Assembly: GCF_020883535.1 (NCBI RefSeq)
Contig: NZ_CP086654.1
Coordinates: 1,488,001-1,552,000 of the forward strand
Origin: Staphylococcus ratti
GTDB taxonomy: Bacteria; Bacillota; Bacilli; Staphylococcales; Staphylococcaceae
Length of the DNA: 64,000 nucleotides
Direction of reading: 5' to 3'
Under the pieces are notes generated by a model. It had not been told where the DNA came from. It worked only from the letters and a program-made list of their open reading frames with translations, and searched no databases. Positions within the stretch are counted from its first letter, which is position 1. Every line of letters begins with the position of its first letter. Made by a program: the position numbers and the translations under genes. Below are positions 8,150 to 14,331 of this stretch, piece after piece.

Positions 8150-8800
8150 TTATCCCTCACTTTTTAAGTGTTGTAGTGCTTCGTGATATGAATCAAATTT
8201 AAAAAAATAAGAACCTGCCACAAGCCAATCTGCACCTGCTTTGATGACTGATGGTGCAGTTTGATCATTTACGCCACCGTCTACTTCAATTTTAAAATTT
8301 AAACCGTGTTGGTGTCGATATTCATTTAACGCTTTAATTTTGTCGACTGATTGAGGAATGAAAGCTTGACCCCCAAACCCTGGATTGACAGACATAACAA
8401 GTACAAAATCGATATCCTGTAAAAGACTTTCAAGTTGTGATACCGCAGTTCCAGGGTTGATGACAACACCTACTTCTTTACCGTGCGCTTTAATTTTTTG
8501 AATCGCACGATGAATGTGCGGCGTCGCTTCGATATGCACAGAAACTTTATCTGCACCTTTTTCACAAAATGCATCAATGTAATTTTCAGGATTATCAATC
8601 ATCAAATGCACATCAATGGGCAACGTCGTTTTTTTGCGTAACGCTTCTAGAATCGGAAAGCCGATGGAAATATTAGGGACAAATTGGCCATCCATGACAT
8701 CAAAATGCAAGCCATCTACTCCTGCTTCAGTAAGGTGTTGAACTTCCTTTTCGAGGTTCATAAAATCTGCTGATAATAAAGAAGGAAAAATTTTTGTCAT
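8150..8800 (-). CDS. rpe: Ribulose-phosphate 3-epimerase
   Basis: A 216-residue TIM-barrel enzyme of the pentose phosphate pathway that interconverts ribulose 5-phosphate and xylulose 5-phosphate. Family motifs are visible in order: PSLLSADF at the N terminus, VDGLHFDVMDGQFVPN (metal-binding His and Asp), DVHLMI, VLVMSVNPGFGGQ, and KIEVDGGVN with the second catalytic Asp. Its start overlaps the rsgA stop by one base, so the two are translationally coupled. The length is normal for the family. Confidence 0.96.
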   Translation of the reverse strand: MTKIFPSLLSADFMNLEKEVQHLTEAGVDGLHFDVMDGQFVPNISIGFPILEALRKKTTLPIDVHLMIDNPENYIDAFCEKGADKVSVHIEATPHIHRAIQKIKAHGKEVGVVINPGTAVSQLESLLQDIDFVLVMSVNPGFGGQAFIPQSVDKIKALNEYRHQHGLNFKIEVDGGVNDQTAPSVIKAGADWLVAGSYFFKFDSYHEALQHLKSEG

Positions 8801-9675
8801 TAGTACTTCACCTTTCGATTTGAAATTTCATTGAGTAATTGAACATAATGTTGATATCTGAATTCTGGAATTTTGCCTTCTTCAACCATGGCTTTCACCT
8901 GACATTTCGGCTCGTTGAGATGATAGCAATCACGAAATTTACACGACGCACCATAATGACTGATTTCAATAAAATTATCTCGCAACGCTTCTTTATCAAT
9001 ATGGTCAAAATCTAGCGCACTAAAGCCAGGCGTATCAGCAATAAATCCTTCATGGCGCGGGTACAATTCTACGTGTCGTGTTGTATGCTTACCACGGTTG
9101 AGTGCAGATGATATTTCATTCGTTTCGATATTAAAGTTAGGTTGATATTTATTCAACAAACTCGATTTCCCGACACCGGATTGACCACTTAAAACAGCCA
9201 AACCTGGTTCCCATACGTCAAATATAGAGGCTGCACTATCTTCTATACCAACAAATTGCGTTTCGTAACCTATTTCTTCATAAATCGCTAGGCTTTTTTC
9301 AATGGTTGCAATTTCTGTTTCAGAAGCCAAATCTTTTTTTGTAATGACGATGCGCGGCTTTAATCCGTAAGAATGACCAATTACAAGAAAGCGATCAAGT
9401 AATTGCGTGGAAAAGCTAGGCGAAACTGCGCTCATAACAATGACTAACAAATCAATATTACTGACCGGCGGACGCTTCAACTCATTTTTGCGTTGATGAA
9501 TATGCTGAATATATCCTGAAGCATGTGTTTCATCATCAATATCCACTATGTCACCGACAATAGGTGAGACTTGTTTTTTTCTAAATAATCCTCTTGGCTT
9601 TGCATCGTATAGCGTTCCATCTACATCTACGCGATAAACGCCACTGAGCGATCTAATAACACGACCTGTTTTCAA
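8800..9675 (-). CDS. rsgA: Ribosome small subunit-dependent GTPase RsgA
   Basis: A 291-residue circularly permuted GTPase that helps mature the 30S subunit; in S. aureus it is one of the GTPases bound by (p)ppGpp. An N-terminal OB fold (to about residue 65) is followed by G4-like ITKKDL, G1 [12 protein letters not shown], and G3 DTPGFSAL, the permuted order typical of the family. A C-terminal zinc knuckle [14 protein letters not shown] follows. Upstream neighbours differ from other staphylococci: prkC should lie directly ahead, but a P450/lipoprotein module has been placed between. Confidence 0.96.
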
Positions 9676-9887
9676 TTTTGCACCTCATTTGTGTGATGTT
9701 TTCAAACTTATTATAGCAAAGGTTTGACTGAATTCACATCATTGTAAATGATGCCTGTGAATTACAATATGCTACAATTCAAAATGCACCACACAAAATA
9801 AGAGGCTAGAACATATAATGTTCTAACCCCTCAATATGGATAACATGAAGTTATATCTTGACGTACGTTCGCCATCGATTACTATTT
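9676..9887. other. Intergenic region rsgA to P450
   Basis: It holds the hairpin at 9802-9832 that ends the P450 transcript and an unassigned stretch in front of rsgA where the rsgA promoter should lie. No small ORF with a ribosome site was seen. Confidence 0.5.
9802..9832 (-). terminator. Terminator hairpin of the TAGAACAT family, after the P450 gene
   Basis: The arms GAGGCTAGAACAT (9802-9814) and ATGTTCTAACCCCTC (9818-9832) form a stem with a very short loop. A TTTT-containing tract follows on the minus strand. This is one of six related hairpins in the window (see findings). Confidence 0.75.
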
Positions 9888-11165
9888 TTAATGGACACGA
9901 CGTGGTCGCACATTTTTAATTATCGTACCGCTCGTTACTTTACCTGGGAATTGATCTAATTTTACAGATAAATCTTGCTCTGGCGCATCAAAGTCAATTT
10001 TATTCGCAAAGTATTTAATCGTTTCTTCCATTACAATAATCGTCATCCATTCTCCCGCGCAACGATGATTTGTATAAAAATCTCCGCCACCTTGAGGAAT
10101 TAAATCGAATGGGCTGCCATCCCATTTTCCAAAACGATCTGGGTTAAATTGATATGGATTTTCAAACAATTCCGGATCGTGTGTTGTTCCAAAGACATCT
10201 AATAAAGTAAATGTACCTTTTTTGATTTCATATCCATCAAATTCTACGGTTTTCTTAAATTTACCTGGTAGAAATGGTACAAATGGGAAAATACGACGGA
10301 CTTCTTGTGCAAATTTATACGCATAGTTCGGGTCATCCGAAATTTGAAGTTTCTTGCGTTCTTGATCAAATTCAATCATCGCCTTAACTGCGTAACTTAC
10401 AAAACGGTTGACTGCCGCTAAAGGACGTACAACATTCATTAAATCAATCGCACATAAACGCGCTTCCATTGGATTGCCTTTATAATCTTTCCAATGCGCA
10501 AATTCATACAGTGCTGTTCCAGGGTCTACTTTAATGTGACCTTTACGAACAGCTACGATTTGATCTTCTAAAAATTGTTCTACTCTCGCACGTGCTTTTT
10601 TCGCTTTACGGTACCCGCCACCGATCGTTTGGCCGAGCCCTTTAAAAGAATCAATCATAATATCCATATCACGCGCATTACGTTCTGCTTCTTCAGTTGT
10701 TTGTTGAATACCTGCCCATCTAAAACCGATTTTAGTTAACACATAGATTGACTCTTTATAAATATTTACTTCTTTTTTATTTTGCATGGCTTCCGTGTGA
10801 ATAAACCAATAATTGCGTGCCAGTTCACGCAAATACGTTAAATTTTCTTCAGTCATTAATGACATAAATAACGCTTTACGATCAACATGTACTTTCCCTT
10901 TTGTCGTATGGATTGCCCCTTTACCAAATAATGTGTTTACGACACGTTTTGGCAATGTCTTTTCACGCTGCATCACATCATTATCATAAAATAGCTCAGC
11001 AGCTTTTTTACCGCTAATGACTGCAATAGGTTTCATTCCCATTCCAGACGTTTGGAATGCTTTTGTATTAAATTTTTCTAAGCGGCATGGTACGTATGTA
11101 TATGCCTCTTTTAAAACTTTAAATGTATTATCCAATCCTGGATCTTTTGGTAATTTTTTAGCCAC
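9888..11165 (-). CDS. Cytochrome P450 of the CYP152 peroxygenase family, OleT-like fatty acid decarboxylase or hydroxylase
   Basis: A 425-residue P450 that by recall aligns along its whole length with OleT of Jeotgalicoccus and with B. subtilis P450-BSbeta. CYP152 enzymes use H2O2 to hydroxylate fatty acids at the alpha or beta carbon or to decarboxylate them to terminal alkenes. The heme loop is PQGGGDFYTNHRCAGEW with Cys369. Arg247-Pro248 (RPLAAVNRF) matches the carboxylate-binding Arg that replaces the usual acid-alcohol pair. His86 in LFGKGAIH sits where OleT has His85 and the BSbeta hydroxylase has Gln, and Phe80 matches OleT Phe79. A GTG start at 11165 is chosen because GGGGGGAC lies eight bases upstream and the N terminus then matches OleT; the longer frame from 11198 does not. 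It interrupts the conserved prkC-rsgA junction, suggesting lineage-specific gain. Family firm; the reaction product is an inference. Confidence 0.93.
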   Translation of the reverse strand: MAKKLPKDPGLDNTFKVLKEAYTYVPCRLEKFNTKAFQTSGMGMKPIAVISGKKAAELFYDNDVMQREKTLPKRVVNTLFGKGAIHTTKGKVHVDRKALFMSLMTEENLTYLRELARNYWFIHTEAMQNKKEVNIYKESIYVLTKIGFRWAGIQQTTEEAERNARDMDIMIDSFKGLGQTIGGGYRKAKKARARVEQFLEDQIVAVRKGHIKVDPGTALYEFAHWKDYKGNPMEARLCAIDLMNVVRPLAAVNRFVSYAVKAMIEFDQERKKLQISDDPNYAYKFAQEVRRIFPFVPFLPGKFKKTVEFDGYEIKKGTFTLLDVFGTTHDPELFENPYQFNPDRFGKWDGSPFDLIPQGGGDFYTNHRCAGEWMTIIVMEETIKYFANKIDFDAPEQDLSVKLDQFPGKVTSGTIIKNVRPRRVH

Positions 11166-11506
11166 TTCTATGTCCCCCCGACATTTATTTTCTATCATTT
11201 TACCCTATTATATCGCGTATTAATCTTAATAATCTAATAAAAAAGATAACGCTTTTCTTTGATTTAACGCTACTCCACTCACTTGAATGAATGCCATTCA
11301 ACTACAAGTTAGATATCGTTTTAGATATAGTTTATTATAAATAATGTTTATAGACTTATTTTAATTACACACGCTTAGTTATGCAATATTAAAGAATGTT
11401 ATTTATATATCGCTTTACGTACGTATAATAGTGATATACGTATATAATATCTAATAATACTTAAAAATATACGCGCACGGACTGCAAAGTGAAAGGGGTT
11501 CTAAAA
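11166..11506. other. Divergent control region between the P450 and the lipoprotein gene
   Basis: About 340 very AT-rich bases. A TATAAT -10 for the P450 lies at 11207-11212 (minus strand) with a weak -35. TTGAATGaatgcCATTCAA at 11283-11301 is a 7-base inverted repeat that could be an operator. Towards the lipoprotein, TATAAT occurs near 11425 and again about 20 bases further on. Confidence 0.5.
11283..11301. promoter_or_regulatory. Inverted repeat, possible operator
   Basis: Seven-base arms TTGAATG and CATTCAA are separated by five bases, placed upstream of the P450 -10 and between the two divergent genes. No regulator gene is adjacent. Seen in sequence; the role is a guess. Confidence 0.35.
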
Positions 11507-12011
11507 GTGAAAATTAAATATTTAACTGTACCAACTTTAGCGCTTGCTTTATTATTAGCTGGTTGTGGCAATGACGCTAATAACGATGAAAAAAGTAAGA
11601 AGAACGAAAGTAAACAAGAGCAAAGTAAGAAAGAGAAAGAAGAGAAAAAGAAAAAGGAAGAAAAAGGAAGAAAAAGCAGAGAAAGAAACTAATGAAAATG
11701 AGGTTTCTAACGAGACCGATAATCAACAAACTAACAACGAAACCAATGTGAATGTACAAGATAACCAACAATATTCTGAACAAAATAACACTACAAACCA
11801 GCCTCAAGTCAATGATAATTCTTATAACAATGAAGAACATCAAGAATACTTAAAAATTAAACAAAATACCGAAGACCTTAAAACTGCAGAAAGACCACCA
11901 GGTGCTGGCGGTGGCGGCGCGAGTTGGAACTATACCCTTGATGGCGAAAGTTTTGAAGAATTTAAAGCACGCACAGATAGAGAGAAAGCAGCGGCAGGCA
12001 TTACCGATTAA
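11507..12011 (+). pseudogene. Frameshifted lipoprotein gene
   Basis: Translation from a GTG at 11507 (AAAGGGG eight bases upstream) gives a type II signal peptide, VKIKYLTVPTLALALLLAGC, with lipobox LAGC and Cys20, then a Lys/Glu-rich stretch that stops at 11692. The +1 frame continues from the same Lys/Glu region to 12011 with an Asn/Gln-rich linker and the C-terminal block PPGAGGGGASWNYTLDGES...AAAGITD. Removing one A from the A5 run at 11661-11665 joins both halves into a ~167-residue lipoprotein. The break lies in a repeated GAAGAAAAAG unit, so slippage, phase variation or a sequencing error could each explain it. The C-terminal block looks conserved, but I do not recognise the family. 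Confidence 0.75.
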
Positions 12012-12345: not shown

Positions 12346-14331
12346 TTAAATATCATCATATTGAATTGTTTTATCTTTTACTGTCTTGCCATCAACTTTT
12401 ACGGTATAACTTGCCTCACCATCTTCTTCGACCACAAAACTTAAGTTTTGAGATGTTGAACGCGTCATTGTAAACGACGCCACTGGCGATTTACCGTCGT
12501 CGTTTTTATCCTTTTTAAAGATTTCTACTTTTTGAGCCTTACCATCTTTTCCAGTATAAGGTACTGTAAAGCTTTCATCGTAGGTTTTATCTTCATGAGT
12601 GGCTTCTTCATCTTTGTCGTCAGAATCGTCCCCTTTAGAAACAATAAAGTCGACAGTACTTCCTTCATCTACTTCAGTCTTACGTGGAGAATGGCTAATG
12701 ATATGACCTTCTTTGAATTTATGATCTGCACGTTCTGATTTCACGTTGACAGTTAAGCCTTTATCTTCTAAGTCCTTTTTAACTGTATCAAACTTTTCGT
12801 CCGTATAATCGTCTACATAGACTTGACGTTTACCTAGCGACTCTGTGATATCTACCCTTGTTTTAGTAACCGCAACTTTTTCCCCTGGAGCAATACTTTG
12901 TCCTTCAATATTCCCTTTGGCAATGTCGTGTTGGGTATAAGCAGTAGTGAATTGTACATTTTCAAATCCTAACGCTTCTAGCGTTTTTTCCGCTTCTTCT
13001 TTCGTTTGACCAACAAGATTAGGCATTTCTTCAATATGTTGTCCTTTAGAAACTACAATGTTAATTTTAGTTTTTTGTTCCACTTTTTCGCCTTCACCAG
13101 GTTCAAGTTTCATAATCTGATTTTTAGCATACTTATCGCTATAATCTTGTGTAATGTGTCCAACTTCTAACTTGTTATCTTTTAAGATTTTTTCAGCTTG
13201 CTTTTCTGTTTTTCCGAGCAAATTAGGTACTTGGCTATATTTGTTTCCCATCATTGCAGCGGCAACAAAAATAAACAGACTGAAAAATAGCAGTATAAAA
13301 ATGCATGCAAAAATAATTTTCTTCCATTTGGATCGTTTCTTAGGCGCATATTCAGTCATATTAGATTCCGCACTTGCTTGAGCGACTACAGGAATTTGCG
13401 TTGTTTGTTTCACTGATGTTGTGGATGTCGGCTCATTTTTAATTGTATTTTTATCCAACATAATCGTCTTTGTCGCACTTGAATCTGTTTGATATGGGGT
13501 TTCATTTTTTCTCGTCTCTGAAAGTGTAGAAGACAAATCGTGTCGCATCTCAGCTACAGAACTATAACGATGCGATTGTTCCTTTTCTGTCGCTTTTAAA
13601 ATTACATTGCTTAGAGGTTGTGGCACATCGTGTCGCTTTTCAGATACATTCGGTACAGCATCTTGAATTTGTTTAATCGCAATGCTGACAGGCGTCTCAC
13701 CATTAAATGGCGGCTGTCCTATTAACATTTCATACAGTACAATCCCTAATGAGTAGATATCAGATTGCTCTCCAGTTTTTTGGCCTTTGGCTTGTTCTGG
13801 AGATAAATATTGAACTGTGCCTACAACATGGTTCGTCTGTGTCATTGCTGTTTCACTTAATGCTTTTGCAATACCAAAGTCCACTATTTTCAAAGTTTGA
13901 TTACGGTCGATAATAATATTTTGTGGTTTGATATCACGATGCACGATACCTTTTTCATGCGCATGTTGTATCCCTTTAAATATTTGTTCTGCAAACTTAA
14001 CCGCTTTTTCTGGCGCTAATCGGCCATGGGATTTGATATAGTCAGAAAGTGTCGGTCCTTCAATGTATTCCATCACTAAAAAGAAACAATCGTCTTCTTC
14101 CCCAACGTCTAGCACGCTAACAATGTTTTCATGGGATAGCAATGTCGTATTTTGTACTTCTCTTTCAAATCGTGCAACCGTTTCATGTTTCTCATTAGGA
14201 GGAACATGAATCATTTTGACTGCAACTTGGCGATTTAAAATGCGGTCCCAAGCCACATAAACATTACTCATGCCGCCGCCACCTAAAATATGTTTTAATT
14301 CATAGCGTTCATCAATGATGCGGCCAATCAT
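12346..14331 (-). CDS. prkC: PASTA-domain Ser/Thr protein kinase PrkC (Stk1/PknB)
   Basis: A 661-residue membrane kinase that senses muropeptides or lipid II and phosphorylates cell-wall and regulatory proteins. The kinase domain fills residues 1-270: glycine loop GGGGMSNVY (17-25), Lys39, catalytic HRDIKPQN with Asp133, and DFG at 151-153. A Thr-rich linker leads to one membrane segment (about 339-361), then three extracellular PASTA repeats starting near residues 366, 435 and 505 (VPNLLGKTEKQAEKILK, MPNLVGQTKEEAEKTLE, YVDDYTDEKFDTVKKDLE), and a C-terminal domain of about 80 residues. It overlaps the phosphatase gene stp by four bases. Confidence 0.97.
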   Translation of the reverse strand: MIGRIIDERYELKHILGGGGMSNVYVAWDRILNRQVAVKMIHVPPNEKHETVARFEREVQNTTLLSHENIVSVLDVGEEDDCFFLVMEYIEGPTLSDYIKSHGRLAPEKAVKFAEQIFKGIQHAHEKGIVHRDIKPQNIIIDRNQTLKIVDFGIAKALSETAMTQTNHVVGTVQYLSPEQAKGQKTGEQSDIYSLGIVLYEMLIGQPPFNGETPVSIAIKQIQDAVPNVSEKRHDVPQPLSNVILKATEKEQSHRYSSVAEMRHDLSSTLSETRKNETPYQTDSSATKTIMLDKNTIKNEPTSTTSVKQTTQIPVVAQASAESNMTEYAPKKRSKWKKIIFACIFILLFFSLFIFVAAAMMGNKYSQVPNLLGKTEKQAEKILKDNKLEVGHITQDYSDKYAKNQIMKLEPGEGEKVEQKTKINIVVSKGQHIEEMPNLVGQTKEEAEKTLEALGFENVQFTTAYTQHDIAKGNIEGQSIAPGEKVAVTKTRVDITESLGKRQVYVDDYTDEKFDTVKKDLEDKGLTVNVKSERADHKFKEGHIISHSPRKTEVDEGSTVDFIVSKGDDSDDKDEEATHEDKTYDESFTVPYTGKDGKAQKVEIFKKDKNDDGKSPVASFTMTRSTSQNLSFVVEEDGEASYTVKVDGKTVKDKTIQYDDI

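Follow-up and report, generated by a model that had tools for sequence, protein, structure and literature searches.

Introduction

The closest described relatives of the gene considered here belong to the OleT (CYP152L) group of cytochromes P450. The Staphylococcus massiliensis enzyme CYP152L2 (CYP-Sm46/OleTSM) was described in 2017 as an assayed decarboxylase, with 1-tridecene making up 78% of the C14 products of CYP-Sm46d29 and with C18 and C20 acids converted by Sm46 chiefly to hydroxy acids (PMC5588734). Published decarboxylases also include OleT_SA, OleT_JH and OleT_SQ (PMC6452516) and OleT_LA (PMC12284513), such that enzymes of the OleT type were already known from staphylococci. Passages of this literature, e.g., from PMC12284513, treat OleT as a biofuel enzyme and do not discuss its natural role. 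The present analysis concerns a 64,000-nucleotide stretch of Staphylococcus ratti (NZ_CP086654.1, positions 1,488,001 to 1,552,000; the window), in which an open reading frame, profile matches and phylogenetic trees together identify an OleT-type P450 of 425 amino acids, with a GTG start, at 9888..11165 on the minus strand. The family, clade, residues and predicted fold of the protein were determined, along with its locus and the selection acting on it. The enzyme belongs to the already known OleT group, and its gene is very probably the Staphylococcus positional orthologue of oleT, encoding an H2O2-driven and mostly alkene-forming CYP152L P450. The chromosomal place behind pknB, kept across the staphylococcal relatives, seems to be the less-known part.

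Family and phylogenetic placement

A sequence-only reading of the window had proposed an OleT-like CYP152 peroxygenase with decarboxylase-type residues, and both the alignment and the trees bear this out. The protein matches the Pfam p450 model (E = 1.4e-15) and, in a sequence search of the PDB, ranks OleT_Sa (9rxh, 619 bits), OleT_LA (9jqm, 592 bits) and OleTJE (4l40, 590 bits) first, the last score excluding a chance likeness to the founding enzyme. Lower ranks were taken by 6fyj (352 bits) and the hydroxylases BSbeta (1izo, 304 bits) and SPalpha (248 bits), with a gap to the hydroxylases of >230 bits. The NCBIfam equivalog model for CypC (NF053744) scored 455.5 bits, under its curated cutoff of 600, which leaves the protein outside the CypC-type hydroxylases. 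A quick tree of 80 rows recovered the OleT clade with a Shimodaira-Hasegawa-like approximate likelihood ratio test (SH-aLRT) value of 100 on a branch of length 0.88, and a careful tree of 31 rows separated 20 OleT rows from 11 others at 100/100 (BSbeta was included in the trees and SPalpha was absent). Forcing three hyicus-clade rows, this protein among them, into the 11 non-OleT rows was 47 log units worse (approximately unbiased test, p-AU 0.0002). The family tree that the sequence-only reading had called for therefore puts the P450 inside the OleT clade and rejects the grouping with hydroxylases that it had named as refuting.

Within the OleT clade, the nearest neighbours are S. agnetis (91% identical, the nearest named record) and two further relatives, followed by an intermedius/canis group and then S. 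massiliensis. Rows cluster by genus, with the order among genera not resolved by the tree. An AlphaFold model (mean predicted local distance difference test score 89.5; 64-75 in the FG loop) retrieved OleT_Sa, OleTJE and OleT_LA as top Foldseek matches at template modelling scores of 0.93-0.95, with CYP152 structures ranking first, and this fold search could not tell decarboxylase from hydroxylase.

Compared with the known enzymes, the P450 is most like CYP152L2, with which it shares 70-71% identity, the same key residues, a GTG start with a G-rich ribosome site and the same pknB-rsgA locus, and which forms the sister branch to its group. Compared to this assayed S. massiliensis enzyme, the protein here has an FG loop one residue longer and carries Leu321 instead of Ala. 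OleTJE (CYP152L1) is 62% identical, differing by A317 to Leu321, F46 to Ile47 and the longer FG loop, and OleT_Sa (CYP152L7, 9rxh), the top-ranked Foldseek match, is 62-63% identical. BSbeta (CYP152A1) and SPalpha (CYP152B1) have the CYP152 fold, and BSbeta has the Arg-Pro pair and the Cys in common with this protein, but identity falls to 36-37% for BSbeta and 30-31% for SPalpha, and BSbeta carries Gln85 and lies outside the OleT clade.

Active site and predicted products

Alignment to OleTJE equates Phe80 with F79, His86 with H85, Ile171 with I170, Leu177 with L176, Arg247 with R245, Pro248 with P246 and Cys369 with C365, all retained. The hallmarks of CYP152 are therefore present in the heme-ligand Cys369 and the I-helix Arg247-Pro248, and the decarboxylase set of Phe79, His85, Ile170 and Arg245 used by PMC6452516 is complete. 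The codons for His86, Arg247 and Cys369 lie on the minus strand at 10910-10908, 10427-10425 and 10061-10059. The four residues assigned from sequence alone (His86, Phe80, Arg247 and Cys369) were all correct, to which this analysis adds the minus strand, Ile171, Leu177 and an FG loop lengthened by one residue.

The histidine deserves closer attention, as it had been singled out as decarboxylase-type. Across 181 aligned rows, a set with redundancy among its loci, database proteins and typed references, position 85 is His in all 81 rows >52% identical to this P450 (position 170 being Ile in 77 and Val in 4), compared to Gln in 96 and His in 4 of the remaining 100. The Gln typical of BSbeta-type hydroxylases is not found here. 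His85 is a clade marker and yet is also present outside the OleT clade; the hydroxylase-type copy at locus L147 has it. Published accounts of the OleTJE H85Q variant disagree, with alkene still the dominant product in PMC5377825 and decarboxylation lost in PMC5343568, and so the presence of His86 holds up but is not decisive by itself.

Decarboxylation has been shown for orthologues elsewhere, and by analogy Arg247 would hold the fatty acid carboxylate above the heme ligated by Cys369. H2O2 would generate compound I, which would abstract a hydrogen from C-beta, and, with His86, Ile171 and Leu177 predicted to surround the carboxylate and FG loop, the substrate radical would mostly lose CO2 to give a terminal alkene. 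Beta-hydroxy acid would be the side product, and hydroxylation would gain ground with C18-C20 substrates, as it does in Sm46. The alkene predicted for the S. ratti enzyme itself follows from that analogy.

A possible though distinctly less probable cellular role is chiefly the alpha/beta-hydroxylation of fatty acids that are long or branched, alkene then being formed on the side. Sm46 itself turns C18 and C20 acids mainly into hydroxy acids, and two features of the protein point the same way. Where OleTJE (position 317) and the S. massiliensis enzyme have Ala, this protein has Leu321, matching the Leu of the three aligned hydroxylases, and the FG loop (residues ~178-184) carries its insertion in 4/4 hyicus-clade rows (the window, L002, L014 and L015) and in 0/13 other OleT rows inspected. 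The clade, His86, Ile171 and Leu177, however, are all consistent with decarboxylases, and the OleT_LA study that ties the FG loop to selectivity reports that a leucine at an FG-loop position raised decarboxylation (PMC12284513).

A conserved place behind pknB

All 13 Staphylococcus carriers hold the OleT-type gene between pknB and rsgA (one with a run of N inside the gene). In 68 P450-less Staphylococcus genomes with both neighbours on one contig, the two are separated by 136 bp to 5.1 kb containing no P450; pknB and rsgA are on separate contigs in 3/84 Staphylococcus genomes. Four of the P450-less genomes (G002, G044, G074 and G054) have gaps of 1.7-5.1 kb and so other material at this place.

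The same arrangement extends beyond the genus. In 19/19 non-Staphylococcus OleT loci, the P450 is preceded by a pknB of like orientation (nine from the same family, one from family f2 and nine from family f4), and rsgA lies downstream in 15. Among those without it, L065 ends with its contig, and L064, L143 and L151 have ~6.0, 3.9 and 5.8 kb of downstream sequence with no rsgA, such that either the downstream side is not conserved or rsgA is more distant. Measured between aligned ends, the distance from pknB to the P450 is 1.0-2.7 kb for the nine same-family loci and 1.3 kb for f2. Other genes may intervene in these loci, the lipoprotein-like gene of the window being an example. The distance shrinks to 73-86 bp in 8/9 f4 loci, and a spacing of ~70-110 bp is usual for Jeotgalicoccus and Salinicoccus. 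Named Salinicoccus and Lacicoccus contigs, which possibly overlap with the surveyed genomes, have both neighbours in 6/6. Because a P450 near-identical to OleTJE (L141) lies in the order pknB-oleT-rsgA, the founding OleT gene very likely occupies the same locus. Five hydroxylase-type loci (L059, L060, L146, L147 and L148) have pknB or rsgA neighbours in no case. No description of a conserved oleT locus behind pknB was found among the titles and abstract openings of the open-licence literature, which does not imply its absence from print, and PMC6452516 and PMC12284513 make no mention of pknB, operon or synteny.

Conservation of gene order also bears on a possible role in detoxifying the fatty acids of host skin in partnership with fakA, as the sequence-only reading had suggested from the nearness of fakA. 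The substrates of orthologues include C12-C16 acids, and animal-associated species are among the named carriers. But fakA is present in 82/84 Staphylococcus genomes and sits at the same spot in species without the P450: its distance to rsgA is 2.0-4.4 kb in 79/80 measurable genomes (9.5 kb in one), with medians of 2.37 kb with the P450 (n = 12) and 2.24 kb without (n = 68), so its nearness reflects ordinary gene order and is uninformative. The P450 also resembles its own transcription unit, with a predicted promoter-like block and terminator-like hairpin, and the gene is found in 33/33 genomes of f4 and is absent from 71/84 Staphylococcus genomes. Family f4 is of the Salinicoccus/Lacicoccus/Jeotgalicoccus type, many of them environmental. 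A defence role with fakA is accordingly doubtful. Taken as a whole the earlier reading is partly supported, correct in its observation and mostly correct in the family call, with a weak physiological inference.

Distribution, probable loss and selection

An OleT-type gene was found in 71/157 genomes of the order, comprising 13/84 Staphylococcus, 24/24 others of the same family, 33/33 of f4 (G124-G156) and one of f2. A broader tally of 73 genomes with CYP152-like matches counts two further Staphylococcus genomes with hydroxylase-type matches only, at other places (one at 37% identity, the other in two pieces at 34 and 39%). Fifteen genomes from outside Staphylococcus gave no match; their numbering (G109-G123) suggests that they belong to families f2 and f3. 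Hydroxylase-type CYP152 copies (35-37% identity) also occur elsewhere in one Staphylococcus (L025/L059, G059) and in many f4 genomes (L146-L148).

Mapped onto a PknB+RsgA tree that spans 93 genomes (81/84 Staphylococcus and 12 others), presence and absence of the P450 require three changes, with the P450-less groups being the stem of 59 Staphylococcus, a clade of seven and one pair. Change counts alone do not separate loss from gain, and this tree is flagged for long branches meeting; as the chromosomal place is shared, the simplest reading is that an ancestral oleT was lost three times, by most Staphylococcus species. No P450 relics were detected by tblastn (E up to 1) in the pknB-rsgA gaps of 68 P450-less loci (the input was 69 loci, one of which, L097, is a carrier, and the three genomes with split neighbours were outside the set).

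The patchy presence in 13/84 Staphylococcus genomes could instead be ascribed to a recent horizontal acquisition in this lineage, which is highly improbable. It is disfavoured by the shared locus (13/13 Staphylococcus carriers and, behind pknB, 19/19 other loci examined), by the clustering of the P450 tree by genus and by the mobile elements, where CYP152-like matches on 110 plasmid and two phage records are all <60% identical (34.8-39.4% among the 20 plasmid rows listed). One such plasmid, NZ_CP120074.1 of S. saprophyticus, bears a hydroxylase-type CYP152 at 35.7% identity. Where it is retained, the P450 is under strong purifying selection, with ratios of nonsynonymous to synonymous substitution rates (dN/dS) of 0.036-0.067 across six pairs from four hyicus-clade genomes, compared to 0.015-0.087 for its neighbours; these values are rough, with most dS >1.

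Species label of OleT_Sa

The survey also calls for caution against naming S. aureus as a source of OleT. The title of PDB 9rxh gives S. aureus as the source of OleT_Sa, but the chain in that entry differs at 1/429 positions, as read from the alignment, from the P450 of G102 (L038). That genome belongs to genus g4, as does G106, whose P450 is identical, over the columns of the tree, to a protein named Mammaliicoccus vitulinus. The pocket residues T47, I177, V319 and L405 given for OleTSA in PMC6452516 match 6/8 g4 rows. Against a g4 origin, the identities to OleTJE and Sm46 printed in that paper are 69% and 64%, unlike the ~65% and 67-69%, respectively, of the g4 proteins. The sequence falls in the Mammaliicoccus-type branch and the species label looks doubtful; the match could be explained by wrong labelling of the strain or equally by S. 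aureus having acquired the gene through transfer. We infer that S. aureus lacks an oleT gene.

Gene start and flanking features

The P450 frame is on the minus strand, the plus strand over 9888-11165 is interrupted by many stops, and the P450 is its own single match in the genome (E up to 0.001). Translation starts at a GTG at 11165, with an upstream in-frame ATG that would add 11 residues. A Shine-Dalgarno-like run, GGGGGG (11174..11179, minus), lies 8 nt ahead of the GTG, and run and GTG recur together in most, not all, hyicus- and intermedius-type loci inspected. In the S. massiliensis relative, a shorter version starting at GTG gave soluble, active protein (PMC5588734).

A -10-like TATAAT (11207..11212, minus) was recognized by eye in a block common to 4/4 hyicus-clade loci, CRCGWTATAATRGGG, with a canonical -35 absent in the clade; the element is missing from the output of a promoter scan whose 12 matches are no more than the 12.0 expected by chance. 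Beyond the stop codon is a terminator-like hairpin of 16 pairs (9799..9833, minus), and the P450 thus looks, by prediction, like its own transcription unit. A by-eye search of the aligned loci found no shared regulator site in the promoter, and Rfam gave no match at gathering score between 9000 and 12400.

The neighbours are genes that we take, from sequence and gene order, to be rsgA (ribosome GTPase; 8800..9675, minus) downstream and pknB/prkC (PASTA Ser/Thr kinase; 12346..14331, minus) upstream. Between pknB and the P450 sits a divergent lipoprotein-like gene on the plus strand (~11505-12011) with a signal bearing an LAGC box. It switches frame inside a Lys/Glu-rich A/G tract, such that the signal and the C-terminal part are in different frames, and among the loci compared it matched only its own genome, besides one 35-base match in L011.

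Implications

The evolutionary pattern is of more interest than the enzyme itself. It is conceivable, if rather unlikely, that oleT belonged to the ancestral core genome of the Staphylococcus-Salinicoccus order and has stayed behind stp-pknB, a pair of cell-wall signalling genes. In this view its product, terminal alkenes or hydroxy acids in the membrane, would have a function in envelope or peroxide physiology linked to the PASTA kinase, and most Staphylococcus species would have lost the gene in three separate events. The kept place and the nested presence and absence of the gene provide a direct comparative test, in which hyicus- and intermedius-type carriers can be set against P450-less sister species.
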